Shown here one piece after another: positions 682 through 25,481 of a stretch of 64,000 bases of DNA. Position 1 is the first letter of the stretch. Every line of letters begins with the position of its first letter. Source of the DNA: Flavobacteriaceae bacterium LYZ1037 (lineage in GTDB: Bacteria > Bacteroidota > Bacteroidia > Flavobacteriales > Flavobacteriaceae). A model generated the notes under the pieces. It did not search any database, was not told where the DNA came from, and was given only the letters and a program-made list of their open reading frames with translations. The stretch lies in the NCBI GenBank assembly GCA_003144015.1, contig QFWS01000009.1:1-64000 (forward strand), written 5' to 3'. A program made the position numbers and the translations under genes.

Positions 682-2277
682 CTACTGAAGATTGACTAAT
701 ACCAAGACAAAACCTTGTCCAGATGGTAAAGACGACATTGCCTTTCCAACTATGGCTCCTTGTGCTCTTGAATACTCCGTTACTTTCATGGCATAACCAG
801 GAGTTGTAGAGGACGTAAGCAAATCTCCAACTTCAATACTTCCATTAGATGCATCAGCATACACATAAACTTTACCAGTTAAGGCTAATGGATGTTTACC
901 ATCGCTAGTTGCATATCTATTCTCTTGGCTTAAAGTACTTTCGTCTGAAGTCATTTCTCCTCCCATTAAAATTGCTGGCCGTATGCCATTAGCGCCACTA
1001 ATAATACCTGCTACTTTTTTATCATAAGGTTGATTAGACACCATCATCTCGCCAGGCTTATTTGGATCTAAACAAAGGATCATGCCTGGTTTTGCTTGTG
1101 AAGCATTAGAAACCGCATAAAACTCGGCCAAATCAGCTCCTGTAACTTCTATTTCCTGAGTTATCACTCTTCCAAGACCTAAAAAATCGGCATCTAAAGA
1201 TATTCCTAATGACCCATCAGATTTATACATTTGTATTTGCGAGCCAGTATTGGCTGTTTCAGAAGCTTGTAATTCAAGTGTTCTAAATCCACTATTCATA
1301 TAATACTCCGTTTCTCCACCGGTTCCTGCTCCAGAATATCTTGTTCTTACAGTGGTAGTATCTGCATTTCTAACGTAAAGATCTTTTTGATTCACATTAA
1401 GTCCTGTTCGTCCGTGTGAATCAGTTCCAATCATAAGTCGATCGGAAATTTGAGTTCTTCCATTAAAATATGCGGCATATCCCTGCTCATCGTTATTGTA
1501 TGCATATATGCCATAGTTACCGGGACCACTGGCATACCCATATAGTGCATAATGATTTCCTGTACCATTAGCCGAGATATAAGAGTAAACACCGTACATA
1601 TTACCTGAAGCTCCAGTTGTGCTTAATGTATTATATATACCGTAAGTTGAAGACGTAGCATCATTGGAACTCATATTATTATACAAACCATATCTAGTTC
1701 CTGTTCCATCGGATGTGGTATAATTATATATCCCATATTTAGAACCACTACCAGCATAATTGTTTTGGAAATATGTCGTAATTGTTTGGTCATCACTTAT
1801 AACATGTAATTTTCTTGCTGGATTAGCAGTACCTATACCAACATTACCATTTAATCGGTGAATTCCATTTCCGTTATCCTCCCATTTAGAGGTATCTGGT
1901 GCAGAGAGTGCATAAGGGACGGCTTTAAATTCTGTAGTACCCATATCTTGCAATCCGTCTCCTGTATTAATCTGCACATTTAAAAAATGGAGATTTCCAG
2001 CCCAATCAATATCATTAAAAACACCACTTAAAGGATTTCCTTCTCCTATATTTATTATAATAAGTCCGTTATCATCTGTATTAGGTGTATGAGATTCTTG
2101 GTACACAGTAGGTCCTACTGCGCTGGTAGAATGAATTGTAAACTCAACAACAATAAGGTCGTTTGCAATAACATTACCACTATTGTCTTTTACAACAGCT
2201 TTGTAATTAATGCCATTTTGAGCAAAACTTGTAAATGAAATAAATAAAACAAGAAATACTGTAGTAATGTTTTTCAT
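682..2277 (-). CDS. Exported INYKA-module surface protein with G2/collar-like C-terminal domain
   Basis: A 531-residue protein with a signal peptide ending near SFTSFAQ, followed by the ~100-residue module shared by six proteins here (GINYKAVVKD ... GLIIINIGEG ... IDW ... VPYALSA). The centre (about 140-290) is rich in short YGIYN/YGLYN/YGVYS turns, which look like a repetitive beta-structured fibre, beginning with the tail-fibre-like phrase GNVGIGTANPARKLHV. The last ~150 residues (from about ITQEIEVTGADLAEFY to GFVLVLVNLQ) resemble the C-terminal domain seen in many bacterial fibre-like proteins related to phage Peptidase_G2/collar domains; that assignment is by pattern and uncertain. It has no S74 domain and no recognisable T9SS sorting domain. 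It is the last gene of its minus-strand series, with its own 219-bp upstream region containing the TGTAAC direct repeats. Confidence 0.7.
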   Translation of the reverse strand: MKNITTVFLVLFISFTSFAQNGINYKAVVKDNSGNVIANDLIVVEFTIHSTSAVGPTVYQESHTPNTDDNGLIIINIGEGNPLSGVFNDIDWAGNLHFLNVQINTGDGLQDMGTTEFKAVPYALSAPDTSKWEDNGNGIHRLNGNVGIGTANPARKLHVISDDQTITTYFQNNYAGSGSKYGIYNYTTSDGTGTRYGLYNNMSSNDATSSTYGIYNTLSTTGASGNMYGVYSYISANGTGNHYALYGYASGPGNYGIYAYNNDEQGYAAYFNGRTQISDRLMIGTDSHGRTGLNVNQKDLYVRNADTTTVRTRYSGAGTGGETEYYMNSGFRTLELQASETANTGSQIQMYKSDGSLGISLDADFLGLGRVITQEIEVTGADLAEFYAVSNASQAKPGMILCLDPNKPGEMMVSNQPYDKKVAGIISGANGIRPAILMGGEMTSDESTLSQENRYATSDGKHPLALTGKVYVYADASNGSIEVGDLLTSSTTPGYAMKVTEYSRAQGAIVGKAMSSLPSGQGFVLVLVNLQ

Positions 2278-2494: not shown

Positions 2495-2496
2495 AA

Positions 2497-4320
2497 TTAT
2501 GGAGACGTGTAGTTTTCTATACGTTCTACACGTTCTAACAAGGCTTGAAATTGATTTTCTTGTTCTATATTTTTTTGTTTCTCACTAGTAATTAATTTTT
2601 GTTGCGCATCAATAACCTCTTGCTGTTCTTGAATGGCTTTTATTAATACAGGAATCAATTCTGTATAACTTACACTTAAAGTTTTATCTTCGTCATCTGC
2701 TGTGTGTACAATTTCTTTAATAACTGACTGCACATCTTGAGCGATTAAACCTAAAGACTTATTTTCTTGGTCTGGTTTTGAAATCCAATTATAAGCTTTT
2801 GGTTGTAATTGTAAAACTTGGTCTAAACCATATGGAATGGATTCTATATTGTTTTTTAATCTAATATCACTACTATGTACGACACTTCCATTTACTAACA
2901 CATTACCATTGCCTAAAATAGACATGATATCTCCAGCAGCTGAATGATAAAAGTTGAGTCTATCTGTTGATGGCGTATCGCTTATACTTCCTGCAATAGT
3001 CCAATAACCCGGTATGAATGAAGAATTAGAAAAACTGAGTCTTGCATAATCACCAGAGGTTTCTCTAATATTAATTTGTGGAGAAGTCTGCGAACTGGCA
3101 TGATCGATATCTAATTTGGCATTTACAAAATAACTTTTATTAATGCCTATATGACCATTTTTTAGAACAGTAAAGGCGTTACTTTTATTACTATTACTTG
3201 TTCCATTTCCTATTATAAACAGAGGGTCTGTTGCTATCCAAGATGTTGCGTTACCACTTCCTGTATTATACCTGCCAATTACTGTTGAAGCATATGCTGT
3301 TGCTGTTGTATTGTATCCCATTGCTGTAGAATAATTTCCTGTTGCACCACGTTCTAGACTAGAACCACTACTATAACTTAAATCTATGGCATTATTTCCT
3401 ATAGTACCATAATAAGCTGGATTTCGCCCTATTATTCTATGACCTGTATTACTACCTTCTGTTAAAACTTCAAGTCCTGAAGATGTTAAATTTGCATCTG
3501 CATATTCCTTTGTTATTAAGGCTTTGGCATCAGTAATTTCATTTAAATCAAAACTTGGCGCAGTAATGGTCCCGTTTTTTAAAACCGTTAAGGCGTTACT
3601 TCTATTTACAGCACTTGTTCCATTTCCTATCTCAAATAATGAATTAGTTGAAACCCATGACGTTGCATTTCCTCCACCAACATTATATCTACCTAACACT
3701 GTAGAAGTATAAGATTCTGCTTGAGTTACATATCCCATAGCTGTAGAATATTTTCCTGATGCTTTTGTAAAAGCACCTATTGCTGTAGAATAATCTCCTG
3801 AAGCACCATATACACCAGATGCAACAGAACTTGAACTTAAATCCACGGCATCTGCACCTATGTTATCATAATTATTTGGATTTCTTCCTTTTAAACGCCA
3901 ACCTGTGCCATTACTTTCATCTAGAGCTTCTAGACCCGTGACATTTGCAGCCTTTTCAGCTTGAATAGCATAAGGAACTGCCATAAATTGTGTGGTTCCT
4001 AAATCTGTTAAGCCAGAACCCGTATTAATTTGCACATTTAAAAAGTGGTCGTCTGTTCCCCAATCTATATCTGTAAATACATCAGATGTAGTGCCTTCAC
4101 CTATATTTACAATAATAAGTCCGTTAGCATCAGTTGTTGGTGTATGCGTTTCTTGATAGACGTTAGTAGCTTGTTGGTAAATGATGAATTGAACATCAAT
4201 AGTTTGATTGGCTACCACATTACCTATATTATCTTTTACAATGGCTTTGTAATTAATGCTTTGTTGGGCATAACTTGTTAATGTGATACAGAATGCGATT
4301 AAAAGTGATAGTTTTTTCAT
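2497..4320 (-). CDS. Modular YadA-head / Peptidase_S74 surface fibre protein
   Basis: 607 residues. Signal peptide (ITLTSYAQ) and the INYKA module come first (about 20-125). Two copies of a cassette follow, each opening with GLEAL/GLEVL...GWRLKGRNP and closing with a FxIGNGTS...SNALTVLKNG phrase; the first also carries APSFDLNEITDAKALITKEY. Inside the cassettes are YadA/Hep_Hag-type repeats (YSTAMGY, YSTAIGA). The C-terminus is an intramolecular chaperone auto-processing domain (Peptidase_S74). Its signature SDIRLK starts at about S484, with the predicted Ser|Asp cleavage site and Lys five residues on. It is followed by KAYNW, LGLIAQDV and a coiled coil (QEQQEVIDAQQKLI). In phage tailspikes this domain trimerises the fibre and is then cleaved off, so a homotrimer is inferred here. 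No T9SS sorting domain is visible, so its export route is open. Confidence 0.8.
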   Translation of the reverse strand: MKKLSLLIAFCITLTSYAQQSINYKAIVKDNIGNVVANQTIDVQFIIYQQATNVYQETHTPTTDANGLIIVNIGEGTTSDVFTDIDWGTDDHFLNVQINTGSGLTDLGTTQFMAVPYAIQAEKAANVTGLEALDESNGTGWRLKGRNPNNYDNIGADAVDLSSSSVASGVYGASGDYSTAIGAFTKASGKYSTAMGYVTQAESYTSTVLGRYNVGGGNATSWVSTNSLFEIGNGTSAVNRSNALTVLKNGTITAPSFDLNEITDAKALITKEYADANLTSSGLEVLTEGSNTGHRIIGRNPAYYGTIGNNAIDLSYSSGSSLERGATGNYSTAMGYNTTATAYASTVIGRYNTGSGNATSWIATDPLFIIGNGTSNSNKSNAFTVLKNGHIGINKSYFVNAKLDIDHASSQTSPQINIRETSGDYARLSFSNSSFIPGYWTIAGSISDTPSTDRLNFYHSAAGDIMSILGNGNVLVNGSVVHSSDIRLKNNIESIPYGLDQVLQLQPKAYNWISKPDQENKSLGLIAQDVQSVIKEIVHTADDEDKTLSVSYTELIPVLIKAIQEQQEVIDAQQKLITSEKQKNIEQENQFQALLERVERIENYTSP

Positions 4321-4563: not shown

Positions 4564-6090
4564 TTACTCGTTATTCCAAGATAACACTTTCTTATCTAAT
4601 TCTTGAAGATGCTTTTTTATTTCACCTAATTCTTTCTTCAAAGATTCATTTTCCTCCTTTAGCATTTGTATGGTGTCGTTAGTTTCATTACTTGTTCTCG
4701 ATGATGAGCTAGTTGAACCATTAACTACATTATCAAGTTGCGTTAAACCACCTGGTGTTTTGCCATAAAAATGGCCATCGAAATAGAATATCGTTCCATT
4801 ATCTTCAGCCGCACCATTAGTGTAACCAAGCTTAAGGGTTCCATTGATATATACATTTTGACTTTTTACTTCCATAGTGTTATATAGTGCATTATTGATA
4901 TTAATACCCCATGAACTAGTAGTCTGGTTATAAAAGGTATAGGCAGCTGGAACACCATTTACACTATATCCATAAAATGGTTTAGAATATAACCCTCCAT
5001 CAACATCGATATACATTCCTCCAAATGTATTGACCTTTGTTGACTTAATCGTTAGGTCTGTATACTGGTTAAGCTGTGTATTTGTATTAATAGTGACGTC
5101 ACCGTTAAGTATAGCCCCTTCGTTAACTTTAAGCGTTGTTTTTGCTACCAAGTTATTCAGAACATGTGTAGAATCTGGACTTACTTTTAATTTATCACCT
5201 TCAACATATAATCCCCAAAAGTTTTCTATTCCATTGTAATAATGCCAAGACTTTCCTGCATTTCCAACTGCATAACCATAAAATGGTATCGCAGCATTCG
5301 TACCCAATGAATTCACGTACATGCCACCATAGCCTTCACTAGGCTGTGTTAATGTAAAACTTGCAGCTCCTATCTGAGGACCAGAATGATTGAGCCTCAT
5401 GTTTCCAGTGATGTCAATATCACCATTTACTGTTAATAAATTCGTGTCAAAATCACCATGTATTAAAGGGGTGTTTGTATCTGTATTTGCAATGTATAAT
5501 TTGTTACTGCCTGTTTCATTATATCCAGCACGATATCCTAAAGCGACGTTTCCTTCTCCTGCAGTATTTGAAGACAGGGCTTGATATCCTACTCCAACAT
5601 TCCTATTAGAGGTGCCGTTATCCTGGGCACCAGCATCTAAACCTAAAAATATGGAGGAACCATTTACGTCAGATTTCCCATCGTCTAAATCGGCTATTTT
5701 AGTAGCTGTATTTGCGGCACTTAAAGCATAAGGTACTGTCATAAACTGTGTGGTTCCCATATCTGTTAAACCAGAGCCTGTATCTATTTGTACGTTTAAA
5801 AAGTGATCGTCTGCACTCCAATCAATATCTGCAAACACATCTGTGGTTGTACCAGATCCTATTGTTACTATAATAATTCCATTAACATCAGTCGTTGGTG
5901 TGTGTGTTTCTGTATAAACAGCACTACCATTTGCGGTGGCTTCACGTATTTGAAACTGCACACCAATAGTCTGGCTGACTAGAATATTGCCTAAATCATC
6001 TTTTATAAGAGCTTTGTAGTTAATGCCTTGCTGTGCAAGACTTGATATTGTAATTAAAAATGCAATGATTAGTGTTATTGTGTTCTTCAT
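4564..6090 (-). CDS. INYKA-module surface fibre protein ending in a coiled coil
   Basis: 508 residues with a signal peptide (ITISSLAQ) and the shared module (GINYKALIKD ... VTIGSGTTTDVF ... VPYALSA). The next segment (IADLDDGKSDVNGSSIFLGLDAG ... GVGYQALSSNTAG ... GYNETGSNKLYIANT) is the G-x-A-L/G-x-x-A-G ladder found in tail-fibre-like Bacteroidota proteins. Two related blocks follow (GGMYVNSLG / GGMYIDVDG, each with FYGYAV/FYGYSV). The last ~35 residues are a strongly predicted coiled coil (NDTIQMLKEENESLKKEL) without an S74 domain, which could itself provide trimerisation. Only 6 bp separate its start from the stop of the gene at 6097-7728, so the two are probably co-transcribed. Confidence 0.72.
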   Translation of the reverse strand: MKNTITLIIAFLITISSLAQQGINYKALIKDDLGNILVSQTIGVQFQIREATANGSAVYTETHTPTTDVNGIIIVTIGSGTTTDVFADIDWSADDHFLNVQIDTGSGLTDMGTTQFMTVPYALSAANTATKIADLDDGKSDVNGSSIFLGLDAGAQDNGTSNRNVGVGYQALSSNTAGEGNVALGYRAGYNETGSNKLYIANTDTNTPLIHGDFDTNLLTVNGDIDITGNMRLNHSGPQIGAASFTLTQPSEGYGGMYVNSLGTNAAIPFYGYAVGNAGKSWHYYNGIENFWGLYVEGDKLKVSPDSTHVLNNLVAKTTLKVNEGAILNGDVTINTNTQLNQYTDLTIKSTKVNTFGGMYIDVDGGLYSKPFYGYSVNGVPAAYTFYNQTTSSWGININNALYNTMEVKSQNVYINGTLKLGYTNGAAEDNGTIFYFDGHFYGKTPGGLTQLDNVVNGSTSSSSRTSNETNDTIQMLKEENESLKKELGEIKKHLQELDKKVLSWNNE

Positions 6091-6096
6091 AATGTT

Positions 6097-7728
6097 TTAG
6101 TTGGATGATTTAGATTCTATAAGTTCAATTCTAGATAATAGTGCTTGGTAATTTTGCTCTATACTTTTTAATTGAGATTTTTGATGACAATTATCTGTAT
6201 TAAGTGTTTCTATAATACTTTGTTGTTCTTGAATAGCTTTAATGAGTACAGGAATAAGTTCTGTATAGCTAATCCCTAAAGTTTTATCGGCATTGTCTTT
6301 AGCAGTTACAATTTCTTTAATAATGGGCTGAACTTCTTGAGCTATTAATCCTAAAGATTTATAAGTTTGCTCTCTGTCTTTCCAGTTATAGGCTTTGGGT
6401 TGAAGTTGCATGACCTCATTGAGCCCGTATGCCAGAGTTTCAATATCTTTTTTTAACCTTTTATCTGAAGCATGGATTGTAGCACCATTTTGTCTGATCG
6501 CTCCTCCTTCACTCACCGAAAAGACTTCATTACCAACTCCATTTCTAACAATAAAGGAACCCGATTCATTGTCATTATAATCTAACTCTACAATTACACC
6601 ATCATAGCTTCTAATGTAAAAATCACTACTTCCGTATTGTGGATCGGATGAGATAATCGCGTCATCCTCGGCATTAGCGTTGGAATCTCCACCAAGAATA
6701 ATATCAGGATTTTGACTATTAGTTGATCTAGTATATAGACCAGCATCGTCACCTCTAAATAGTCCTCCATATACACTTGCATTATTCACATAAAAACCCA
6801 CGGAACTTCCACCACTTACATGAATACCGAAACCACTTCCATTAATTATCTCAAGACCATTTGTGACGCTATTTAATCTCATTCTACCAGTGTTAAAAAC
6901 AGTCAAAGCATTAATTCTATCAATATTAGAGGTTCCTCTACCAATTTCAAATACTGCGTCAGAGATGCTCCATTCTGTTGGGTTTCCTCCACCCATATTA
7001 TAGCGTCCAATAGCAAAAGAACCAAAAGCATCTGCATTATTATTTAATCCAAAAGCCGTAGAGAAATTCCCGTTAGCGTCATTTGAACCTCCAAATGCTG
7101 TAGAACTTGTACCGCTTGTAATATTAAATTGTCCAGTAGAAAAGGAAAAAGAACCAGATGCTTCAGATGATACTCCAAAAGCAACAGAAGAACGTCCTGT
7201 GGCTCCTCTTACATTACTTTCAATTGGCTGGCGACTAAAATCAATTGCGTATTCGCCTATATTGCCATAATTATCAGGATTACTATCAATTAGTCTCCAA
7301 CCATTACCATTTCCCTCATCAATAGCTTCCAATCCTGTAACATTTGCTGCTTTTTCAGCTTGAATAGCATAAGGAACATGCATAAACTGCGTCGTGCCTA
7401 AATCGGTCAAACCATCTCCCGTATTCACTTGAACATTTAAAAAATGATCATCGCTTGCCCAATCAATATCTGCAAACACATTTGATGTTGTACCTTCTCC
7501 TATATTTACAATAATGAGTCCATTAGCATCTGTGGTTACCGTATGTGATTCTTGATAAACATTGGTTTGTGCTGCACCTTGCTGAATGATAAATTGTACG
7601 ACTATAAGGTCGTTTGCAATGACGTTACCAGAATCGTCTTTTATAATAGCCTTGTAGTTAATGTTTTGTTGGGCAAAGCTTGACAATAAACTAAATAGAA
7701 TAATAAATACTGTAATATATGCTTTCAT
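6097..7728 (-). CDS. Modular YadA-head / Peptidase_S74 surface fibre protein
   Basis: 543 residues. The order is signal peptide (LLSSFAQ), INYKA module (about 20-130), one cassette with GLEAIDEGNGNGWRL and Hep_Hag-like repeats (GSFSFSTGQ, TSSTAFGGS, NFSTAFGLN), and a beta-rich stretch. The C-terminal S74 domain starts SDKRLK at about S421, with KAYNW, LGLIAQEV and YTELIPVLIKAIQEQQ, then a coiled coil. The S-D-x-x-x-K arrangement needed for self-cleavage in phage endosialidase-type chaperones is intact. It lies 41 bp downstream of the 7770-9482 gene and 6 bp upstream of the 4564-6090 gene. It is most similar in layout to the 2497-4320 protein but with one cassette instead of two. Confidence 0.8.
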   Translation of the reverse strand: MKAYITVFIILFSLLSSFAQQNINYKAIIKDDSGNVIANDLIVVQFIIQQGAAQTNVYQESHTVTTDANGLIIVNIGEGTTSNVFADIDWASDDHFLNVQVNTGDGLTDLGTTQFMHVPYAIQAEKAANVTGLEAIDEGNGNGWRLIDSNPDNYGNIGEYAIDFSRQPIESNVRGATGRSSVAFGVSSEASGSFSFSTGQFNITSGTSSTAFGGSNDANGNFSTAFGLNNNADAFGSFAIGRYNMGGGNPTEWSISDAVFEIGRGTSNIDRINALTVFNTGRMRLNSVTNGLEIINGSGFGIHVSGGSSVGFYVNNASVYGGLFRGDDAGLYTRSTNSQNPDIILGGDSNANAEDDAIISSDPQYGSSDFYIRSYDGVIVELDYNDNESGSFIVRNGVGNEVFSVSEGGAIRQNGATIHASDKRLKKDIETLAYGLNEVMQLQPKAYNWKDREQTYKSLGLIAQEVQPIIKEIVTAKDNADKTLGISYTELIPVLIKAIQEQQSIIETLNTDNCHQKSQLKSIEQNYQALLSRIELIESKSSN

Positions 7729-7769: not shown

Positions 7770-9482
7770 TTACAGTTTATATATAATAAATTGGAAGGTT
7801 GTTGTGACTTGTGTGCCACTAGCATCAAAAATTCTGACATTAAGATCTGCATCGCTATCTCCATTACCATCAGAAATAACTGTACTAGCTGTTCTAGGTG
7901 AAGTAGAAATTGGCGTAATTAAACAAACGGTATTACCATAGGATAATGATTGTGTCCCATTGACATCAATAACAAAGACATTGCCACTAAGAAAAGCGGT
8001 GAAATTACCTGTACCACTTAAAACATTTCCGGTAGATTCTACTATGCCATAGGCAATTGGTATCAAATTAGCATTTCCTGTTGTAGCTGTATGAATTTCT
8101 TCTGTATTAATGACATCAGCATCCATTATATCAGTAGTTATTTCTTCGGTGACCTCTAAAGTGCCATTAATACGTATTAAATCGGTGTCAAATTCACCAT
8201 ATATAAGCGGATTACTTGTTTGACCATTATGTATGTATAATTTGTTATCACCATTTGGAGGAAATTCACCTGCGCTATTACCAATAAAAATATTATTGCT
8301 TCCAATGTTACCAGCCCCTGCACTGTGACCTATAGCTACATTATTATTTCCTATTATATTATTACGAAGTGCGTAACTTCCAATAGCGACATTATGATCA
8401 CCAGATGTATTCTTATTCAGTGTTAAGTGTCCTAAACTTGAATTTTGATTATCACCATCATCATCATTCCCTGCACCATTACCAAGAAATATAGAAGCAC
8501 CTATAGAGTTTTGAGGATCTGTTTTACCATCTGATAAGTCATCTATTCTAGTGGCTGAGTTTACATCTAAATATTCTTTAGTTATTAATGCTTTATCATC
8601 TGTTATTTCTGCCAAATCAAAACTAGGCGCAGTGATGGTTCCATTTTTTAAAACGATTAGGGCATTACTTCTTGCATCAAACGTTGCTCCATTACCAATA
8701 GTAAAAAGTCTATCGGTAGGATTCCATTGGGTTTCTCCATTTAGTCCAATTGTATATTGTTGGTTATATGAACCTAGAGTTGTTTCTGCAAGTGATTGTG
8801 CAAAACTATTTATTCCAACTGCAAATGAAGACTCTCCTAACGCGTGATTGTTATTGCCTATTGCAAAAGAATATTCACCACTAGCTACGGAACTATAACC
8901 CATTGCAGTTGAATAAGGACCAGACGCTTGGGTACGGAGTCCTGAAGCAAAAGAATGATTGTTTGTAGCTCCTCTATCTGTTACACTTCCATACTGATAA
9001 CTTAAATCAACCGCCTGAATGCCAATAGATCCAAACAAAGATCGATCACGTCCTTTTAATCGCCAACCAATACCATTACCTTCGTCTAGCGCTTCTAAAC
9101 CAGTTACATTAGCTGCAGATAAGGCATAAGGCACAGCCATAAACTGAGTGGTACCCAAATCTGTTAAACCAGTCCCTGTATCTATCTGAACATTAAGAAA
9201 ATGGTCGTCTGCACTCCAATTGATACTTGAAAAATCATCAGAAGTAGTACCTTCTCCAATATTTACAATAATGAGTCCATTAACATCTGTGGTTGGTGTA
9301 TGGGTTTCTTGATAGACATTGGTTTGTGCTTCACCTTCTAAAATACTAAACTGAATTTGAATTAAATCGTTAGCAACCACACTGCCAAAGTCATCTTTTA
9401 TTAAGGCTTTGTAATTAATGCTTTGTTGAGCATATGTTGCTAATGAAATTAATAATGCTAGAAGTGTGAGTTTTCTTTTCAT
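7770..9482 (-). CDS. INYKA-module surface fibre protein with YadA heads, no S74 domain
   Basis: 570 residues. Signal peptide (SLATYAQ), INYKA module, then one full cassette (GLEALDEGNGIGWRLKGRD ... SNALIVLKNGTITAPSF ... DDKALITKEYLD) carrying Hep_Hag repeats (YSTAMGYSSVASGEYSFAIG, SSFAVGINSFA). After that comes a G-x-x-A-G ladder (SIFLGNGAGNDDD ... VAIGSYALRNN ... VAIGHSAG ... IFIGNSAG ... NKLYIHNG) shared with the 4564-6090 protein. The C-terminal ~110 residues (GNANLIPIAYGIVESTG to FQFIIYKL) form a small beta-rich domain that I do not recognise. It replaces the S74 chaperone. The gene sits 41 bp downstream of the 2,004-residue T9SS cargo gene, so an operon running 15538 to 4564 is plausible. 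Confidence 0.75.
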   Translation of the reverse strand: MKRKLTLLALLISLATYAQQSINYKALIKDDFGSVVANDLIQIQFSILEGEAQTNVYQETHTPTTDVNGLIIVNIGEGTTSDDFSSINWSADDHFLNVQIDTGTGLTDLGTTQFMAVPYALSAANVTGLEALDEGNGIGWRLKGRDRSLFGSIGIQAVDLSYQYGSVTDRGATNNHSFASGLRTQASGPYSTAMGYSSVASGEYSFAIGNNNHALGESSFAVGINSFAQSLAETTLGSYNQQYTIGLNGETQWNPTDRLFTIGNGATFDARSNALIVLKNGTITAPSFDLAEITDDKALITKEYLDVNSATRIDDLSDGKTDPQNSIGASIFLGNGAGNDDDGDNQNSSLGHLTLNKNTSGDHNVAIGSYALRNNIIGNNNVAIGHSAGAGNIGSNNIFIGNSAGEFPPNGDNKLYIHNGQTSNPLIYGEFDTDLIRINGTLEVTEEITTDIMDADVINTEEIHTATTGNANLIPIAYGIVESTGNVLSGTGNFTAFLSGNVFVIDVNGTQSLSYGNTVCLITPISTSPRTASTVISDGNGDSDADLNVRIFDASGTQVTTTFQFIIYKL

Positions 9483-9523: not shown

Positions 9524-12500
9524 TTATTTTTTTATCAGTTTTCGATGAGTTGTATGACCATTAGATGTATTAATCAACCTAATGAGATACATACCTTCTT
9601 GTAGATTATTCAGATTAGTTATTTTTAATTGTGTGCTTTCTAATGTTTTAATCGTGTTTATGATTTCCTTTCCGTTTAAATCGTATAAGATGATTTGGAA
9701 TCTGTTGTTTAATAATTTGTTTGGAATTACAAACGTTACCTCTTGGTTGAATGGATTTGGAAAACTTGTAATAGCCTCTAATTCATTTTCTACTATTGTT
9801 AGAGTTGGATCATCTACAGTTACCGTTGCTGTACATTGTACACTGTTACCATGAAAGTCTGTAATTGTTAATGTTACTGTATTTTCTCCAACATTTGATG
9901 AATTAAAACTTGAAGGGCTGACTTCCATAGTATCAATACCACAACTATCATACGATCCATTATCAATATCTGTAGCTAATATGGTTGCATTACCTGTTTC
10001 ATCCAGTTGAATGGTAATATCTTGAGTTAGACACACTGGACTGATCGTGTCCTTGTCATCTTCCATCCCATTACAATTTTCATCAATGTCATTACATTCA
10101 ATTTCAGTAGCGTCTGGGTTAATCGCATTATTAGTATCATCACAATCTAAACTATTTTCTACATAACCGGTTGGTGTGGTGCAGTCTTGAATCGGATTAT
10201 TAAAATCGCCATAGTTATCTCCATCTGAATCAGAATAATAGGTGTTTGTTCCAAAAATTGTGATACTGAAAGTTGTGTTATTTGAATTTCCAGAGTCATC
10301 AACGGCTGTTATAATAATTTCCTGAGTTGTTCCATGATTACTAATAACCGTTCCTGCTAGAGGTGATTGAGAAATGGTATTTACTGAACAATTATCGGAA
10401 ATGGTTACCAAACTGGTATAATCAGGAATTGTGAAATCACATCCAGATGTTGGTGTCACATTAAAATCGGACACGGAAGTTAAACTTGGAGGTTCGTTAT
10501 CTATAACTGTTATAGTAAAATTATCTGAATACGAATTGTTGCTACCATCAGTCACAACATACGTTATTGTAGTAATTCCTAAAGGAAACGTGCTGCCATT
10601 TGTTAAACCTATCGTTTGAACAAAACTCATAACTGAACAGTTATCTGTAGCTGTTGGTTCTGTCCAATTTACTATTGCTCCACAAACTCCTAAATCGTTA
10701 TTAACAGATATGTTTGAAGGTAATCCTACTATACTAGGGTTTTCGGTGTCTGAAATAGTTATTAATGTTACATCAGATACTGAGTTTCCAGAACCATCCG
10801 TATTTGTATAAGTAATAGTAGTTTCGCCTAATGGAAAGGTATAAGTACCTATTTGCCCTGATCCAATATCACTTATAGCTCCTGACATTATCCACGATAA
10901 ATTACTTTGACAATTGTCAGCTAAAGTTGCATCTGGAATTATTAAAGTAGCGCTACAGTCTCCGTTTGAAGTATCTGTATTTATATTTCCTGCCGAACTA
11001 ATACTTGGTGCAATAGTATCTTCAACCGTTACAATAGCTGTTTCGGTAGCAGAATTATCACTGCCATCTGTAACGGTTAACACAACTGTATTTTCTCCTA
11101 GATGGCTACAATCGAACGTCGTGATATCAGTATCGAAAGTTAAAGGACCACAAGCATCTGTTGAGCCATTATTTACAGCATCTTCAGCTATAGTTGCATT
11201 TCCATTAGCATCTAATTGAATGGTTATGTTTTGGGTAATGATAGTTGGTGCTATAGAATCTTCAACTATTACAATAGCTGTTTCGGTAGCAGAATTATCA
11301 CTGCCATCTGTAACGGTTAACACAACTGTATTTTCTCCTAGATAGCTACAATCGAACGTCGTGATATCAGTATCGAAAGTTAAAGGACCACAAGCATCTG
11401 TTGAGCCATTATTTACAGCATCTTCAGCTATAGTAGCATTCCCATTAACATCTAATTGAATGGTTATGTTTTGGGTGATAACTACAGGTACAGTTTCATC
11501 AATAACCGTAACTGTGCTTACACAACTATTTGTATTTCCATAAGAATCGGTTGCAGTAAAAGTAACATCGTTTTCACCTAAATGAGAGCAATCAAACGCA
11601 CTTATATCAATTTCCGACAGAACGATTCCACAGTTATCCGTTGAAGCCGAACCTACATCATCAGCAGTAATAGACCCATTTCCGTTAGCATCTAACACCA
11701 CTTGAATGTTTTCGCAAATAACATTTGGAGGAGTAATATCACCTATAAGACCTTGCAAAGGTGTCATATTAAAAATAGGATCTTCCTCCGTACCATTATA
11801 CTCGTATATATTGACATAATAATTGGTTAATTGTTGCAATAAATTAGGTGGAGCCAATTCTCCTGAACCTTTAAAAACAATAAAACCATTGCCAATAGCA
11901 TCTCCAAAACCATAATCAAAACTTGCAGTATAATTTGTCGCATTTACTGGTGTCGTGTTTAAAAGCGATTCGCTTAAAATAACGATACGGCCTTCGCCAT
12001 TTCCACCAATCCAATCTAATATCACATCACTATCACAAGGAGGTGTGTAATTTAAGTCACTACAAATAACTGTTGGTGGATTAGGTGTTGCTTGTGAAGC
12101 TGTACTTCCAGGTGTTAGATACAATTCACCATTTTGATTGATGGCATATTCAAAGAAAGCAAAATGATAATTGGTTGATAAATTTAAATCTGATAGCTGA
12201 AATTCATCGTCTGTACCATTGTATACCACAAAATTATTTGTGCCTATTTCTTCTCCGACACCAAAACTACCATCAGCCAAATAAGTTGTAAAATCTGATG
12301 GTTCTACATCAACTGGCGTGCCTTCTTTAGCAACAACTAAACGTGAAGAACCATTTCCTCTAGTAAATTTAACAAGCATAGAGGTCGCTCCAATTTCTTC
12401 AAATTCAATATTAGAGACTTGAATGGTTGGTCTTTCTCCATAAGTTTCGGCTTCAAACGTATATCCAGGTCTTAAATAGGCTTTTCCAGAGCTTCCATTA

Positions 12501-15538: not shown

Positions 15539-15685
15539 AATAATTATTTTAAAGTTGTAATATAAAATGAGTTTATGATGAAAAGTCAGCCAAAACTCTT
15601 TCATGTTAATGTTGAAACCTGAAACTTTAATAGGTTTAAATGTTCTTTAAGGTAAAGCTTATAATTAATTGAGTTACAATTAAAA

Positions 15686-16438: not shown

Positions 16439-16458
16439 AAGTGTATTATTTTAATTGT

Positions 16459-17630: not shown

Positions 17631-20600
17631 TTAGGAATTCGAGATGTATTCGCTTGGAGTTGTATTGTATGTGTCCTTAAAACATTTTATAAAATATGAA
17701 GGTGTGTTGAATCCAACTTGATAGGCAATTTCAGATACCGTAGCATCCGATTTTTTAAGAAGTTCTACTGCCAGTTTTAATCGTTGAGAACGTATAAACT
17801 CACTAGTTGTCATTCCTGTAATGGCTTTTAATTTTCGGTGTAGTTGTGTTCTACTTACATGCATGTATTTGCTAAAAGCATCGCTTGTAAATTCAGAATT
17901 GGTAATATGTTTATCTAAAACTAATTGCATTCGTTTTAAAAACTCTGCTTCTGTAGAGGTAATAGCCAATTCTGGATTAATACTTAAGGTTTTACTGAAA
18001 TGTTTTTGAAGTTGCTGCCTACTTTCTATAAGTTTTTTAACTCTAATTTTTAATTTTTTGCTATTAAAAGGTTTTGTAACATAGGCATCTGCTCCAATTT
18101 TAAGTCCTTCAATTTCATTTTCTTCACCTACTTTTGCTGTTAGTAAAATAACTGGAATATGACTGGTAAGTTCGTTAGTTTTAATAGCATGGCATAATGC
18201 GATACCATCTTGAACAGGCATCATAATATCGCTAATAATAATATCTGGCAGGTTTTTTTGTGCTTTTTCCTCACCAATTTTACCGTTTGCAGCCTCAATA
18301 ATTTGATAATCTGTTTTAAAGGTTGAAACGATGAAAGTACGAATATCGGTTTCATCTTCTACAATTAAAACTGTTGGCTTATCTGTATTTATATTTTTAT
18401 TATTGTCTGAAAATTCAGGACTGTTTGGTTCTTCTGTATTAAGAATTAATTCTGTTTCATTAAAAGCCGTTTTATTAACTGGTAGCGATATGGTAAACTG
18501 AATTTTATTATCGTCAATATTATTTGCAATAATGGTACCCTTTGATAATGTAACTAAATCTCTAACTAATGCCAAGCCAACACCTACACCTTCAGATAAT
18601 GTATTATCCTGATAAAAACGTTGGAATAATTTGCTTAAATCTGTTTTGCTTACATGTTGTGTTTCATTAATTATAGATACAACCAGCATGCCTTCTTGTT
18701 TATTGGCTTCAAACTGAATAACACTCTCCTTTGGCGCATACTTTACAGCATTAGATAATATGTTTGAAATAACTTTTTCTATAATATCCTTATCGTACCA
18801 AACCAGGTCTAAATTCTGAATTTTAGATTTTATTTCCGTTTCATTTTTATTTGCCTTATACTGAAATGCGCTAACTATTTGTTTTAACAATACTCCTAGA
18901 TTGCCTTGTGAGACTTTTAGTTTAATCTGTCCAGAATCTAACATGGATAAGTCCAGCATCTGATTGACAAGTTTAAGTAGTCTATCTGCATTTTGTTTGA
19001 TCAATGACAATTCTTTTTTATCGGATTTTGAAAGTTCTGGTTTAGCCAATTGGTTATCAATAGGTCCCGAAATTAGTGTTAAAGGCGTTCTAAATTCGTG
19101 TGAAATATTCGTGTATAATTTTGTTTTTAATTCGTCTAATTTTTTTAAACGTGCTGTTTCTTCATGCTCTAATCGTAATTGATTTTTAATGTGCCAACGC
19201 CACTTCAAATAATTATAAAGACTTAAAATAAAAATTATAAATAATAACAGATAGGTAATTTTAGCCAACGTATTTGCATACCAAGGTTCTAAAATTGTAA
19301 AAGAATACGTATCTGGATTGGTGTTCCAAACACCATCATAATTGCTTGATATTACTTGAAATTGATAATTATTGGGTGGTAAATTGGTATAATGCGCTTT
19401 ATTATTATTTCCAGATGAAATCCACTGTTCGTCGTTATTAATTAATCGGTATTGGTATTGATTTCTTTCTGGTTGCGAAAAATGTAGCGATGAAAACGTA
19501 AAAGTAATGGTGTTCTCGTTATATTTTAATTTTAAATGGTCTTCTAATTTTCTTTTTTTGTTATAAACCTCAAAATTAGTAATGACTGTTTTTGGCTTTG
19601 TTGGATTAAATTCTAATTGATTTGGGTTAAACCAATTTAAGCCTTCTAAACCACCAAAATATAACGTGCCATTGGCATCTTTAAAATAGGCTCCTGTATT
19701 AAATTCAAAAGCTTGCAAACCGTCGTAATTACTATAATTCTCTAATGTTACATCTTGATTTTCAATATGAAATTTTGAGATTCCCTTATTAGAACTCAAC
19801 CACAAATCCCCTTGATTATCTGGTAAAATACCATAAATAACATTGTTTGGCAACCCTTGTTCTTTGGTATAAGTTGTGACTTTTTTTGTAGAAATTTGAT
19901 ATTTAATTAAACCATTCCCATTGGTGCCTATCCAAAGGATGTCTTTATTAAAATATAAAGATTTTATTGGGTTTAAAACAATCTTAATGTCTTCTATAGA
20001 ATTTGTATTGGTGTCTAATCTAAATACGCCTGCATCTTCTGTTCCAATCCAAAATGTATTTAAACCTCCTTTTTCAATGGTACGAATGTTATTTGATGTT
20101 AAATTTGAGTTTTCCTGATTGAATTGTTTTATAATTCCTTTTTCAGGATCAAATAAAATCAGGCCATTATTCCTAGTACATAACCATAACTTTCCTTCTG
20201 AAGCTTCATATATTTTCCAAATAGTAAACGACGCTATTTCTGAAAAAGAAACAATGTCTCCTGTCTGAGTTACTTTTTGAAGTCCATGTGTTTGATGTCC
20301 AATCCATAAATCTTTATTATAGTACAACAAGCTCATAATCCGGTTGCCGCTTAAATTCGAATTATCGGTTGTAAACGTAATAGGTTCTTGATTATTAGTG
20401 TTTATTTTTGTGAGTCCTTTTCCTGAAGTTCCTAACCAAATATCAGCATCATTTACTGCAATAGCACGAATTACATCAACATGAATATCTTTAGGCATTT
20501 GATTATTAGTCAACACATTAAATTTCACTAAATATTCATCAAAATAACTTAATCCTGCACCATCTGTGCCCAACCAAATGGTTCCTGTAAAGTCTTTAAA

Positions 20601-21515
20601 CAAACACAAAACATCATTATAATGCAAAGCATATGGATCGTTTTTATTAGCTAAAAAATGCTGTATGGTTTCTTGTTCAAAATCAATAATAAAAAGCCCT
20701 TGTCCATAGGTAGCCAACCATAATTTTTGATATTTATCAACTAATACATCTTGTATCATTAGATTCGTAGGCAAAACATCTGTTGAAAAACCTTTAAATT
20801 GTTTAAAAGCATCATCCGTTTTATGCTTTACAAATAAACCATCGCTAAAGCTGCCTAAATAAAGTGTTTCATCTATCGATAGAGCCAAGGAGCTAAAATT
20901 AGTGTCTTCAAAACCTGGAATTTGTTTAAAGTTATAGGCGTCCCCTTCAATGGTTAAAACACCTTTTGAAGTTGCTGCTAATTGATGCTCCCCATATTGA
21001 ATAATATCGTAAGTATCTATTGTTTTATCTTTAGTTTGAAGCAACTGGATAGTATCTTTAGATTGATTATCAATCTTAAACAAACCACTTCCATAGGTTC
21101 CAATAAAATAATCTAAATTCTTATTTTGAAAAACAATACTTGAATTTTTAAACGTATTAAAAACTTTAAAACTATCTGAAGTTATATCATATTTTTGAAG
21201 AATTCCGGAATTACTGATAATCCAAAGTGTACCAGATTTATCTGTGTAAATTTTTCCTAACTTACTAAATGTTGGCCGTGTAACATCTTCAAATTGAATG
21301 TTGTAATGTGTAAACTCTCTCCCATCATATTTATTTAATCCATCTTGTGTAGCAAACCACATAAAACCCAAACTATCTTGAGCTATACTAACAACACTAT
21401 TTTGTGAAAGACCTTGAGCAACTGTTAACTCCCTAAACGCTACTTGCTTATTACTTTGCGCAAAAGCAACACAAGAAAAACAACATATAAAAAGTATTCT
21501 AAAGTAATTCATCAA
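17631..21515 (-). CDS. Hybrid two-component system (HTCS) sensor kinase / response regulator with AraC-type output
   Basis: 1,294 residues, full length for the family. The order is a signal peptide (CCFSCVAFAQ), two-component-regulator propeller repeats to about residue 660 (DSLGFMWFATQDGLNKYDG, GTIWLGTDGAGLSYFD, and similar), a Y_Y_Y domain (NQYQYRLINNDEQW), and one membrane span near 755-775 (KITYLLLFIIFILSLYNYL). Next are HisKA with H806 in NISHEFRTPLTLI, HATPase_c (GVGVGLALVRDLV), a receiver with D1096 in IIISDIMMPVQDG, and a C-terminal AraC/XylS helix-turn-helix (FSKYMHVSRTQLHRKLK ... VAYQVGFNTPSYFIKCF-like). HTCS proteins usually sense oligosaccharides in the periplasm and activate a neighbouring polysaccharide utilisation locus. 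No SusC/SusD or glycoside hydrolase genes lie in this window. Its targets are unknown. Confidence 0.93.
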   Translation of the reverse strand: MMNYFRILFICCFSCVAFAQSNKQVAFRELTVAQGLSQNSVVSIAQDSLGFMWFATQDGLNKYDGREFTHYNIQFEDVTRPTFSKLGKIYTDKSGTLWIISNSGILQKYDITSDSFKVFNTFKNSSIVFQNKNLDYFIGTYGSGLFKIDNQSKDTIQLLQTKDKTIDTYDIIQYGEHQLAATSKGVLTIEGDAYNFKQIPGFEDTNFSSLALSIDETLYLGSFSDGLFVKHKTDDAFKQFKGFSTDVLPTNLMIQDVLVDKYQKLWLATYGQGLFIIDFEQETIQHFLANKNDPYALHYNDVLCLFKDFTGTIWLGTDGAGLSYFDEYLVKFNVLTNNQMPKDIHVDVIRAIAVNDADIWLGTSGKGLTKINTNNQEPITFTTDNSNLSGNRIMSLLYYNKDLWIGHQTHGLQKVTQTGDIVSFSEIASFTIWKIYEASEGKLWLCTRNNGLILFDPEKGIIKQFNQENSNLTSNNIRTIEKGGLNTFWIGTEDAGVFRLDTNTNSIEDIKIVLNPIKSLYFNKDILWIGTNGNGLIKYQISTKKVTTYTKEQGLPNNVIYGILPDNQGDLWLSSNKGISKFHIENQDVTLENYSNYDGLQAFEFNTGAYFKDANGTLYFGGLEGLNWFNPNQLEFNPTKPKTVITNFEVYNKKRKLEDHLKLKYNENTITFTFSSLHFSQPERNQYQYRLINNDEQWISSGNNNKAHYTNLPPNNYQFQVISSNYDGVWNTNPDTYSFTILEPWYANTLAKITYLLLFIIFILSLYNYLKWRWHIKNQLRLEHEETARLKKLDELKTKLYTNISHEFRTPLTLISGPIDNQLAKPELSKSDKKELSLIKQNADRLLKLVNQMLDLSMLDSGQIKLKVSQGNLGVLLKQIVSAFQYKANKNETEIKSKIQNLDLVWYDKDIIEKVISNILSNAVKYAPKESVIQFEANKQEGMLVVSIINETQHVSKTDLSKLFQRFYQDNTLSEGVGVGLALVRDLVTLSKGTIIANNIDDNKIQFTISLPVNKTAFNETELILNTEEPNSPEFSDNNKNINTDKPTVLIVEDETDIRTFIVSTFKTDYQIIEAANGKIGEEKAQKNLPDIIISDIMMPVQDGIALCHAIKTNELTSHIPVILLTAKVGEENEIEGLKIGADAYVTKPFNSKKLKIRVKKLIESRQQLQKHFSKTLSINPELAITSTEAEFLKRMQLVLDKHITNSEFTSDAFSKYMHVSRTQLHRKLKAITGMTTSEFIRSQRLKLAVELLKKSDATVSEIAYQVGFNTPSYFIKCFKDTYNTTPSEYISNS

Positions 21516-22665: not shown

Positions 22666-22679
22666 TTTTACTCTATTTT

Positions 22680-25481
22680 TTAGTTTTTAACTAATTTCAC
22701 ATGAGTATTTGAGGTGTTTTTCTCTAAAGCTTCTACTCTATCTAAAAGTGTTTGTAAAACTACCGCTTGGTCTGTACTAGCTTGGTTTTGGTTTGCTAGT
22801 AAAGTTTTTAGTTTTATATTTTCTTCTGATAGTGATTTGACTTCCTTCTTTAATTCTTGTATGGCTTTTATAGCTACCACTCCAAATCCTGAATAATTAA
22901 GTTGATAAAGGTCAACTTCTTTATTGTAATTCACCAATTCTGGGTAAATTGACTCTACATCTTGGGCAACAAAACCAATTTGTGATTGGTTATTTTTATC
23001 GGTATTATAATGATAGGTTAAGGGCTTTAACTGCATAAAATTTTGCCAGTTAAAATACAGGTCTTTAAAATTGTCTTTAACGCGTCTATCAGACAAGGCA
23101 GAATACACACCGGAAGTGCTGTTAAAAGAACCTACTGGATTGGTATTACCACCAGCTTTAGAATACAAATAAAGGGAACCGTTACTATTAAGCGTATAAA
23201 AACGCCACCAATTTTTGTTAGCACCTTTGTTTAGTAATTTAAACCCATTCTCAGTCCCTCCATTATCATGATATACTTGAAAATCTGTAGTAGGCTCTTC
23301 ATTATGTTTACCTACAGATGTATAACCATTTTGTAAAACCGTGATTACATTGCTGCGATCTGCTGTACCAGTACCATTTCCTACTTGAAACAATGTTTGA
23401 GATGATATATTAGCGTCATTATACCTGCCTATTACTGTAGAATAATAATCGTCTGCTATGGTTCCATATCCAAATGCCATAGAATTACTTGCTGAAGCAT
23501 TTGCATACACCCCTATAGCTACAGAGTTTTCTCCAGCAGCATCAGAATTAAATCCGAACGCCATTGAACCATATGCTGAAGCATTTGCGTAAGTTCCCAT
23601 TGCAATTGAACTAATCCCAGTTGCACTTGGCTCATTACCTATTGAAAATGAATTAATTCCCAATGCTCCGTTTGTGTCTGAAGCATAAAAAGAGTAACTT
23701 AAATCAACAGCATTCGATCCTATATTTCCATATTTTTCAGGATCTCTACCTTTTAACCTCCAACCTATACCATTACCTTCATCTATAGCTTCTAAACCAG
23801 TTGCTGTTGATGCATTTACTTCTAAATACTCTTTAGTAATTAGCGCTTTATCATCAGTAATTTCTGAAATATCTAAACTTGGAGCAGTAATAGTACCATT
23901 TGAATCTATGTTAAAAGCATTACTTCTAGTACTCGTACTGCCACCATTACCAACTTGAAATAAAGACGTTGTAGATGTTGTATTATCGTTAAATGTTCCC
24001 ACAACTGTTGAATATATATCATCTGCTATTGTTCCCCGTCCCATTGCTGTGGCACTTCTACTAGAGGCATTTGTTGTTTCCCCTATTGCTGTTGAATTTA
24101 TTCCAGAAGCTACTGTAAAAGATCCTATTGCAGTTGAAGTTGAACCAGATGCTAATGTACCGTAACCCATAGCTGTAGAATAACTTTCAGATGCAGTCGT
24201 TTGAAAACCCATAGCTGTAGAAACATCATTAGACGCAATTGTTTCTCTTCCCATTGCTGTGGAATAATCTCCAGAAGCATTATTAATCATACCTAATGCT
24301 GTTGACGTATTTCCTGAAGCAATAGCTCTTCTTCCAACAGCAAATGAGTTATTACCTGTAGCACCATTAGTTGTAGAATTGATATCGCTAAATGAAACAT
24401 CAATACTATTCAATCCTATACTACCATAATTGTTAGAATTCCTACCTATCATTCTCCAACCTATGCCATTCCCTTCATCTAAAGCTTCCAAACCTGTAGG
24501 ATTACTACCAGAACCACCTCCAGAATAGTTAGCATCTGCAAACTCTTTAGTAATTAAAGCTTTATCATCTGTTATTTCTGCTATGTCGAAGCTTGGTGCT
24601 GTAATTATCCCATCATTATCAACCACAAAAGCATTAGATCGATTATTGGTATTTGTACCATTCCCTATTTGAAAAAGAGTATTACTTGCTGTTGTGTTAT
24701 CATTAAAAATTCCCAACACCAAACTATTTTGATCATCGGCTATGGTACTGCTTCCAAATGCTGTTGAGTATGGAGCTGATGCTGTTGTATAAAAACCAGC
24801 TGTTGTTGAAAATAACCCCGATGCTGTGGTTACATTTCCCATAGCTGTTGCATATTGTCCAGACGCAGTTGAATTATAGCCCATAGCTACCGATCCATTA
24901 CCTGCTGAAGTGTATTGACCCATGGCAACTGATCCTGTGCCATAAGCGCCAAGTCCTGCGTCATAACCTGCATCTCCTCCATAACTTAAATCGACTGCTC
25001 TATTTCCAATATTATTATAATATGTAGCATCTGTACCTACTATTCGCCAACCAATACCATTACCTTCATCTAGAGCTTCTAAACCAGTAGCATTCCCACC
25101 AGAACCCGAAGTTTCGGCATAAAGTGCATAAGGCACTGCCATAAATTGTGTAGATCCTAAATCTACCAAGCCAGAACCAGTATCTATTTGTACGTTTAAG
25201 AAATGGTCGTCTGTTCCCCAGTTTATAGAAGAAAAGTCATCCGATGTAGTGCCTTCACCAATATTCAGAACGATTAATCCATGAGCATCTGTTGTTGGTG
25301 CATGAGTTTCTTGGTAAACGTTTGTTGTTCCTTCTAAAATAGCTAATTGTACGTCTATGGTTTGGTTCGCTATGACATTGCCTAAATTATCTTTTATGAT
25401 GGCTTTGTAGTTTATAGCCTGTTGTGCAAAACTTATTACTGAAATTAATAAGGTGATGAGTAATGTGATGAGATGTTTCAT
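22680..25481 (-). CDS. Largest YadA-head / Peptidase_S74 surface fibre protein, three cassettes
   Basis: 933 residues. Signal peptide (ISVISFAQ) and INYKA module occupy residues 1-125. Three consecutive cassettes follow at about 132-313, 329-551 and 561-720, each opening TGLEA(L/I)DEGNGIGWR. The first two close with TAPS(F/L)DI(A/S)EITDDKALITKE. Within each are Hep_Hag/YadA-type repeats (SGQYATAMGNVTTASG, SESYSTAMGYGTLASG, ASASNSMAFG). The C-terminal Peptidase_S74 domain starts SDRRVK at S797, with the Ser|Asp site and Lys802 in place, then IGFVAQDVESIYPELV and IKAIQELKKEV leading into a coiled coil. It is separated from the other five paralogues by about 10 kb and precedes the cupredoxin-like lipoprotein by 14 bp. 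Element B of the direct-repeat motif is 135-170 bp upstream of its start. Confidence 0.82.
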   Translation of the reverse strand: MKHLITLLITLLISVISFAQQAINYKAIIKDNLGNVIANQTIDVQLAILEGTTNVYQETHAPTTDAHGLIVLNIGEGTTSDDFSSINWGTDDHFLNVQIDTGSGLVDLGSTQFMAVPYALYAETSGSGGNATGLEALDEGNGIGWRIVGTDATYYNNIGNRAVDLSYGGDAGYDAGLGAYGTGSVAMGQYTSAGNGSVAMGYNSTASGQYATAMGNVTTASGLFSTTAGFYTTASAPYSTAFGSSTIADDQNSLVLGIFNDNTTASNTLFQIGNGTNTNNRSNAFVVDNDGIITAPSFDIAEITDDKALITKEFADANYSGGGSGSNPTGLEALDEGNGIGWRMIGRNSNNYGSIGLNSIDVSFSDINSTTNGATGNNSFAVGRRAIASGNTSTALGMINNASGDYSTAMGRETIASNDVSTAMGFQTTASESYSTAMGYGTLASGSTSTAIGSFTVASGINSTAIGETTNASSRSATAMGRGTIADDIYSTVVGTFNDNTTSTTSLFQVGNGGSTSTRSNAFNIDSNGTITAPSLDISEITDDKALITKEYLEVNASTATGLEAIDEGNGIGWRLKGRDPEKYGNIGSNAVDLSYSFYASDTNGALGINSFSIGNEPSATGISSIAMGTYANASAYGSMAFGFNSDAAGENSVAIGVYANASASNSMAFGYGTIADDYYSTVIGRYNDANISSQTLFQVGNGTGTADRSNVITVLQNGYTSVGKHNEEPTTDFQVYHDNGGTENGFKLLNKGANKNWWRFYTLNSNGSLYLYSKAGGNTNPVGSFNSTSGVYSALSDRRVKDNFKDLYFNWQNFMQLKPLTYHYNTDKNNQSQIGFVAQDVESIYPELVNYNKEVDLYQLNYSGFGVVAIKAIQELKKEVKSLSEENIKLKTLLANQNQASTDQAVVLQTLLDRVEALEKNTSNTHVKLVKN

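Follow-up and report, generated by a model that had tools for sequence, protein, structure and literature searches.

The window analysed in this study is a stretch of 64,000 nucleotides from the marine Flavobacteriaceae bacterium LYZ1037 (contig QFWS01000009.1, positions 1 to 64,000), and it carries six genes, between positions 682 and 25,481, for fibre proteins that share one N-terminal module and end in different domains. We found that this module matches the N-terminal domain of the mosaic adhesive trimer (MAT) proteins of Bdellovibrio, and that fibre genes of this type are often paired, in genomes drawn across the phylum, with a gene for a protein carrying a sorting domain of the type IX secretion system (T9SS), here called the SGG/SEGF partner after its conserved residues. 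On balance, we regard it as probable that the six proteins are MAT-type trimeric fibres, the Bacteroidota counterparts of the Bdellovibrio proteins, and that they are displayed via this T9SS-exported partner, to which we infer a physical link.

All six open reading frames (ORFs) lie exactly where the initial annotation of the window had placed them, and all are on the minus strand, which it did not mention. They encode proteins of 531 residues (682..2277; signal peptide, module at 1894-2277, and a tip other than Peptidase_S74), 607 residues (2497..4320; module at 3949-4317, YadA head repeats, and an S74 chaperone/protease end at 2707-2871), 508 residues (4564..6090; module at 5707-6090 and a probable coiled-coil end, for which only weak matches were obtained), 543 residues (6097..7728; module at 7348-7728, YadA head repeats, and an S74 end at 6307-6468), 570 residues (7770..9482; module at 9105-9482, YadA head repeats, and a non-S74 end), and 933 residues (22680..25481; module at 25110-25481, 11 YadA head stretches, and an S74 end at 22932-23093). 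Signal peptides were read by eye in all six. Peptidase_S74 was matched over the curated Pfam cut-off in the products of the 2497, 6097, and 22680 genes, whose SDxxxK sites are intact at S484, S421, and S797, precisely the three serines that had been predicted, and YadA_head was likewise matched over its cut-off in the four proteins expected to carry it (the 2497, 6097, 7770, and 22680 genes). For the tip of the 682 protein (GADLAEFYAVS... to the end), there was neither a Pfam match over cut-off nor a solved relative by sequence search.

A common module followed by divergence had also been described, and pairwise comparison bore this out: the first ~125 residues are 55-75% identical among the six proteins, and the remainders align only over local stretches at 25-51%, which indicated that the mosaic pattern is real. 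When the module of the 22680 protein was used as the sole query against the genome of the same bacterium (G000; 3.19 Mb, 36 contigs), the other five window copies were recovered at E values of 2.4e-57 to 9.8e-38, a kinship far beyond chance. That search yielded 12 strong copies of the module, spread over five contigs, and one further match that was weak, so that the family, annotated as six-membered, has its six members in the window and twice that number of strong copies in the genome; each of the six S74 domains of the genome sits in an ORF that also bears the module. The closest named relative of the 682 gene is found in Bizionia algoritergicola (83% identical).

The module was then compared with the NCBIfam model NF053851 (Bdello_MAT_N), which stands in for the Bdellovibrio sequences throughout this comparison. 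The model was listed for five of the six whole window proteins (E 6.5e-6 to 1.5e-9, 26-38 bits) and was not listed for the 22680 protein scanned whole. In a six-frame search of the bacterium's own genome, all 12 module copies matched it (E 1.7e-8 to 1.2e-3, none over the cut-off), and 11 of the 12 showed a second, co-linear stretch of NF053851, each weak alone (E 0.01 to 5.7). The match held in a wider sampling as well. All 48 modules of a diverse set matched Bdello_MAT_N at E≤1 (best, 7.5e-15), no other family being found in more than 5 of the 48 (best E for that family, 0.0057), and the model was matched at E≤0.001 by 75 of 78 fibres from two genome draws (best, 1.1e-14). Since the scores fall below the curated cut-off of 60 bits (26-38 for the five window proteins and 43.1 for one isolated module), the module is not filed in the Bdello_MAT_N subfamily. 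Judged by profile similarity, it is homologous to the MAT N-terminal domain but is not a member of the Bdellovibrio subfamily. It also occupies a constant place: in all 140 complete proteins of the named and own-genome loci it begins within residues 1-35, and in 89 of 90 complete proteins from the draws it begins no later than residue 88.

An AlphaFold2 model of the module gave a six-stranded beta fold with a mean predicted local distance difference test (pLDDT) score of 89.4. The best Foldseek hit in the PDB (E 5.9e-3) was to glycoside hydrolase family 2 enzymes, whose immunoglobulin (Ig)-like domains we took to be the matching part; VIA-align returned Z values of at most 7.3, within the range of a common arrangement, and a viral structure library returned one match below 0.001, which was nameless. 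These results point to an Ig-like fold for the modelled module, with no specific family standing out. Pfam scans of module-bearing proteins gave only weak matches to the Ig-like family Big_1 (11 of 136 and 1 of 78). Sequence searches of solved structures retrieved nothing for the module profile at E≤0.1 (one at 0.47) and nothing for the 682 or 2497 protein. A weak resemblance of the module profile to LolA-like proteins (E 6.7e-6 to 8.5e-4 over the first ~66 positions) was attributed to the signal peptide; LolA models appeared in a few of the 48 diverse modules at E 0.014 or worse. The profile search brought up no family with another role, and the family that was matched has the role that had been assigned to the window proteins.

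Bdellovibrio is a predatory bacterium and its fibres grip prey; we know of no predatory setting for the present host, nor was one looked for. In the report by Caulton et al. (2024), B. bacteriovorus is described as having 21 MAT proteins, 13 with S74 and 8 with other tips, built from a signal peptide, an N-terminal domain of ~130 residues, a fibre, and a tip (PMC10769870). According to the same text, Bd3182 was shown to cleave itself at the serine of SDxxxK, those tagged members that were tested were displayed on the surface, and the surface element that binds the MAT N-terminal domain awaits identification (PMC10769870). The term 'Bacteroid' does not occur in its main text (PMC10769870). The proteins of the window therefore share with the Bdellovibrio MATs a signal peptide, a conserved N-terminal beta domain, a long fibre, many paralogues per genome, tips that are either S74 with SDxxxK or swapped for something else, and N-terminal modules that match by profile. 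They differ in that they fall under the model's cut-off, belong to another phylum, commonly contain YadA head repeats and collagen, and are paired with a T9SS-sorted partner. The initial annotation had regarded the layout as undescribed in Bacteroidota; this can hold inside that phylum, but the same plan exists in Bdellovibrio (PMC10769870).

To describe the exchangeable ends, Pfam was run on 136 of 140 complete fibres from named genomes and the bacterium's own genome, the six window proteins included, and on 78 of 90 complete fibres from two sets, one of 296 whole genomes across the phylum (phylum draw) and one of 295 genomes from the class (class draw). The named loci are mostly from Flavobacteriaceae, with a few metagenome-assembled genomes labelled Bacteroidia or Chlorobiota. 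Among the 136 fibres, S74 was found in 79, YadA_head in 63, Lcl_C in 5, and C1q in 4; among the 78, collagen was found in 23, S74 in 17, Lcl_C in 11, Fib_succ_major in 3, and Peptidase_G2 and YadA_head in 1 each. The described members of S74, collagen, YadA head, C1q, and Peptidase_G2 form trimers, so that ends known from trimeric proteins follow the same module and support a trimeric fibre. Domain content thus lends good support to the view that these proteins are modular surface fibres, probably trimeric, whose ends have been swapped.

Two known classes of fibres share some of these ends. YadA-type trimeric autotransporters have the head repeats present in four of the six window fibres but differ in their C-terminal YadA membrane anchor, which was not listed in the Pfam scans of the 136 or the 78 fibres. 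Phage tail fibres and spikes of the S74 type (PF13884) resemble the three window fibres with a C-terminal S74 domain and SDxxxK, and the S74-ended proteins do match many phage tail families, from which one might take the six genes for phage tail-fibre genes or for remnants of a tailocin or prophage. This explanation is extremely unlikely. The window fibres, unlike those of phages, combine a MAT-type module with a signal peptide, the latter in all six; no phage structural gene was seen by eye among the ORFs listed for 1-27 kb; one window module had no match in 50,697 phage records; and 11 IMG/VR stretches fitting the single pattern tried were not confirmed as relatives. Within the scope of these searches (phage records for one module and IMG/VR for one pattern), a phage origin was rejected.

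A purely periplasmic location, with the fibres serving there in structure or in stress, is very improbable too. In its favour, they have by eye only a Sec signal peptide; their domains, however, are of the adhesin type (collagen, C1q, YadA head, and Lcl_C), a T9SS-sorted protein is encoded next to them, and surface display was shown for the Bdellovibrio MAT proteins that were tagged and tested (PMC10769870).

How the fibres reach the surface had been left unclear by the initial annotation, which had noted that no T9SS sorting domain or YadA-type anchor is present; indeed, neither was among the Pfam and NCBIfam matches listed for the six window fibres, and the N-terminal module, which it suggested as the anchor, is a putative one. 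A candidate for the route is now provided by the neighbouring gene. When the neighbours in 76 named or own-genome loci (74 of which hold a fibre gene) were compared, with ORFs under 120 residues ignored for adjacency, the most consistent was a gene whose product has, behind its signal peptide, a segment of ~50 residues of the form IEKFSIDSGG...YTIGEVNVQEL...SEGFINP. This SEGF gene was present in 55 of the 76 loci, in every case on the strand of the nearest fibre gene (55/55), and in 46 it lies directly downstream of a fibre gene. In Bizionia algoritergicola (L026), for example, a 321-residue SEGF gene and then a 262-residue gene of T9SS type A (T9SS-A) come after the fibre gene that is 83% identical to the 682 gene.

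The window itself holds two copies of the SEGF gene start at 3-547, on the minus strand; the cluster, delimited previously as 682-25481, does contain the six genes but thus reaches past that start. The first copy (362..547) encodes 61 residues, consisting of the signal peptide, the module, and a stop, about 135 bp downstream of the 682 gene. The second (3..347) appears by eye to be of the long-form type and runs off the contig end after 115 visible residues. Positions 167-366 and 367-566 form a perfect 200-bp direct repeat that duplicates the gene start at the contig end, and this is either a real duplication or an assembly artefact of the contig end. Three SEGF copies were found in the bacterium's own genome, all adjoining fibre genes, two of them being this one duplication and the third lying next to an S74 fibre on contig C33.

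Among 40 regions taken from the phylum draw, a related segment, SGG...SYSxGQ...QGVQQP, was seen in small proteins that adjoin the fibre gene and in most cases precede it directly. A profile search detected it in 28 of these regions (in two of the 28 with an E of just 0.01-0.02), and in a few others it was recognised by eye. A profile of 36 such segments, 23 of its rows coming from the phylum draw, was then used for whole genomes (the SGG profile). The shortest SGG proteins contain little apart from their signal peptide, SGG module, and sorting domain. The pair is also visible in an independent annotation: on plasmid pAUEa of Aureispira anguillae (122 kb; L215, 6443-8833), a 161-residue T9SS type A gene ends 3 bp before a 633-residue gene, in which we recognised the SGG segment and the fibre, respectively, by eye.

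The pairing was then counted across whole genomes. Fibre modules numbered 102 in 59 of the 296 phylum-draw genomes, and 183 of the 295 class-draw genomes were positive. The SGG profile gave 47 matches in 35 of the 296 genomes, 34 of which hold both SGG and a fibre, and a fibre module lies within 5 kb of 44 of the 47 matches, where about 0.3 such pairs would be expected by chance (assuming 4 Mb per genome). In all 44, the two are on the same strand, with SGG upstream in 35 and downstream in 9. Because 23 of the 36 profile rows come from the same genomes, this count is partly circular, and the second draw of 295 genomes was therefore used. Among the genomes new to the profile (at most 255), 157 had both elements, 14 the fibre only, 3 SGG only, and 81 neither. 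For 40 held-out regions around SGG, spread among the matches listed (the weaker matches being outside the sample), 33 contained a fibre module, giving 34 pairs, all on the same strand, 31 with SGG upstream and 3 with it downstream; in 3 of the remaining 7, the SGG gene is at a contig end.

Several observations weigh against the reading of a MAT-type fibre displayed via this partner, beyond the sub-cut-off module scores and the partial circularity described above. No fibre lies within 5 kb of 3 of the 47 phylum-draw SGG matches (G088, G101, and G208), and 4 of the 40 held-out regions have neither a fibre nor a contig end (L162, L181, L182, and L194). Looked at from the fibre side, the pairing is looser: SGG was found within 5 kb of only 48 of the 102 phylum-draw fibre matches and in 12 of 20 fibre-centred regions, upstream in 6 and downstream in 6, one region duplicating another, and in 14 held-out genomes fibres were present with no SGG detected. 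By eye, some of the fibres lacking a detected SGG are members of arrays or have divergent partners, and others are unexplained. The position of the partner also differs, being mostly upstream in the draws and mostly downstream in the named Flavobacteriaceae loci. In addition, the SGG part alone folds without confidence (pLDDT about 40, from an alignment of 19 sequences); such a prediction would be in keeping with folding on the partner, but it may reflect the shallow alignment only. Finally, the co-occurrence with SprA given below is partly shared ancestry, as a single family (f17) accounts for 16 of 20 listed genomes without SprA, from a total of 68.

The two members of the pair are complementary with respect to sorting. 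Of 77 SGG proteins from the draws, 67 contain Por_Secre_tail and 6 contain CHU_C, and at E≤0.001 the same two domains were found in none of the 136 or the 78 fibres (0/214), where a divergent signal could escape detection. In the SEGF form the arrangement depends on length. Both scanned short proteins (150-169 residues) contain a Pfam sorting domain, and 18 of 19 under 215 residues have the sorting motif; of 34 over 215 residues, 32 are without it, and in 29 of these 32 the motif is present in the gene that comes next on that strand. When 30 such next genes and 29 long SEGF forms were scanned together, Por_Secre_tail was found in 30 of the 59 proteins; individual proteins were not told apart, and the count is the one expected if every next gene but none of the long forms had the domain. 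The T9SS translocon SprA is encoded in 59 of 59 fibre genomes versus 169 of the 237 others. As the fibre has no recognised outer-membrane sorting signal, its display would depend on a separate, neighbouring partner.

These results are consistent with the following route. The fibre protein would leave the cytoplasm by its Sec signal peptide and form trimers in the periplasm through its fibre and tip domains; members ending in S74 would cut themselves at the serine of SDxxxK, the N-terminal Ig-like module would serve as the fibre base, and the C-terminal ends would be swapped adhesive tips. The SGG segment would bind the fibre base in the periplasm, whereupon the T9SS sorting domain of the partner, located on the same chain or, in the long-form variant, supplied by the next gene, would take the pair through SprA, and the partner would attach the pair to the surface. 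Type A sorted proteins are described as being linked to anionic lipopolysaccharide (PMC9143113). Extended to the phylum, this becomes a more tentative proposal, for which we would claim plausibility rather than probability: a small dedicated adaptor carries out a trimeric fibre that has no outer-membrane signal of its own, with SGG on the base and the sorting domain providing passage via SprA and anchoring.

Among the systems known in Bacteroidota, the gliding adhesin SprB with SprF and PG1035 with PorP are similar in that the display of a surface protein is tied to T9SS and a partner (PMC9143113). In those cases, it is the surface protein that bears the sorting domain, and an outer-membrane barrel acts as partner (PMC9143113). 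The arrangement described here is the reverse, since the fibre is without a sorting domain and the small partner has one.

The gene pairing indicates shared function rather than binding, and the SGG protein could be a T9SS surface protein in its own right that cooperates with the fibre, such as a co-receptor or a neighbouring adhesin, while the fibre leaves by another way or has an unrecognised T9SS signal. This alternative is unlikely on the present data, yet it deserves the most weight among those considered. Bdellovibrio displays its MAT fibres although T9SS is described as limited to another superphylum, the genome of LYZ1037 has 12 fibre genes versus 3 SGG genes, and 54 of the 102 phylum-draw fibre matches had no SGG detected within 5 kb. 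Against it, the shortest SGG proteins are hardly large enough to include a receptor, no sorting domain was found in any of the 214 fibres scanned, and SprA is found in all 59 fibre genomes of the phylum draw. It is less probable still that SGG is an assembly or release factor, acting in capping, shedding, or trimerisation and serving neither as an anchor nor as an exporter. The long SEGF forms, with their extra part and mostly without a sorting domain of their own, would suit such a factor, and an SGG segment that is not confidently folded alone would suit a strand donor; the next gene, however, usually supplies the absent sorting domain (29/32 by motif), which keeps the link to T9SS. We retain the reading of SGG as the partner through which the fibre would be exported and attached, and this T9SS-sorted protein may be the missing exporter or anchor.

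If this reading is true, the fibres would represent a two-chain, piggyback use of T9SS, in which the system exports proteins that have no sorting signal, and lists of cargo compiled from such signals would miss a widespread class of adhesins. It would also separate a shared fibre base from a lineage-specific anchor and explain how MAT-type fibres can function both in phyla that have T9SS and in phyla that do not. For the surface element to which the MAT N-terminal domain is attached, there would then be a candidate in Bacteroidota, found by gene pairing, and phage-type self-cleaving ends, collagen, and YadA heads would be tied to one common base module. Two things appear to be new, namely that MAT-type fibres are widely present in Bacteroidota and that they are paired with a partner sorted by T9SS: in the open-licence literature of PubMed Central, supplements aside, we found nothing that joins mosaic adhesive trimers with Bacteroidota and, among the entries listed, nothing on the fibre-SGG pairing. 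As to the initial annotation, its observation was right and its interpretation as modular, probably trimeric fibres mostly so, with the precedent lying in Bdellovibrio, and we regard it as partly supported.

Other genes of the cluster were compared in the same way. A hybrid two-component sensor/regulator of 1294 residues (17631..21515, minus strand), with a propeller, HisKA, a receiver, and an AraC-type helix-turn-helix domain, has one strong relative in the bacterium's own genome, located immediately upstream of fibre genes of contig C1, and another that is weak. Relatives at E≤1e-50 were present in 35 of the 74 named or own-genome fibre loci, and in 29 of the 74 a fibre gene on the same strand follows within two genes; in the phylum draw, only 3 of the 40 regions contained one, for which reason the hybrid sensor was placed outside the core pair. 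It looks like a lineage-specific controller, which, lying just upstream in many Flavobacteriaceae, would probably control expression of the fibres. A Reg_prop search of the own genome gave nothing at E≤1e-5, which is uninformative with a model 24 residues long.

Between the fibre genes lies a T9SS type A cargo gene of 2026 residues with fn3 and HYR repeats (9524..15604, minus strand), a cluster neighbour to which we give a putative role only. It contains internal DNA repeats, 11001-11239 and 11241-11479 being 96% identical and 12472-14350 and 13240-15117 being 82% identical. At 15686-16438 there is a gene for a 250-residue protein, a lipoprotein by eye, with an internal duplication (15696-15988 and 16023-16315, 66%), relatives of which recur in some other fibre loci. 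Proteins resembling the 2026-residue T9SS protein, the lipoproteins, and a DegT-type neighbour were all tried as candidates for a core partner; they are recurrent, yet they look like local cluster content.

In one held-out region (L194; G538:C6:24068-24208), the SGG module is part of a 3703-residue open frame with no fibre module within the 13 kb fetched; G538 belongs to the three new genomes of the second draw in which SGG but no fibre was found. Elsewhere, arrays of fibre genes are often flanked by a gene for a DegT-type aminotransferase and a conserved block (L038, L052, L057, L059, L063, L068, L091, and others), which we take to consist of ribB, lptF/G, a lolA-like gene, and ftsK, as if the arrays occupied a fixed chromosomal site.

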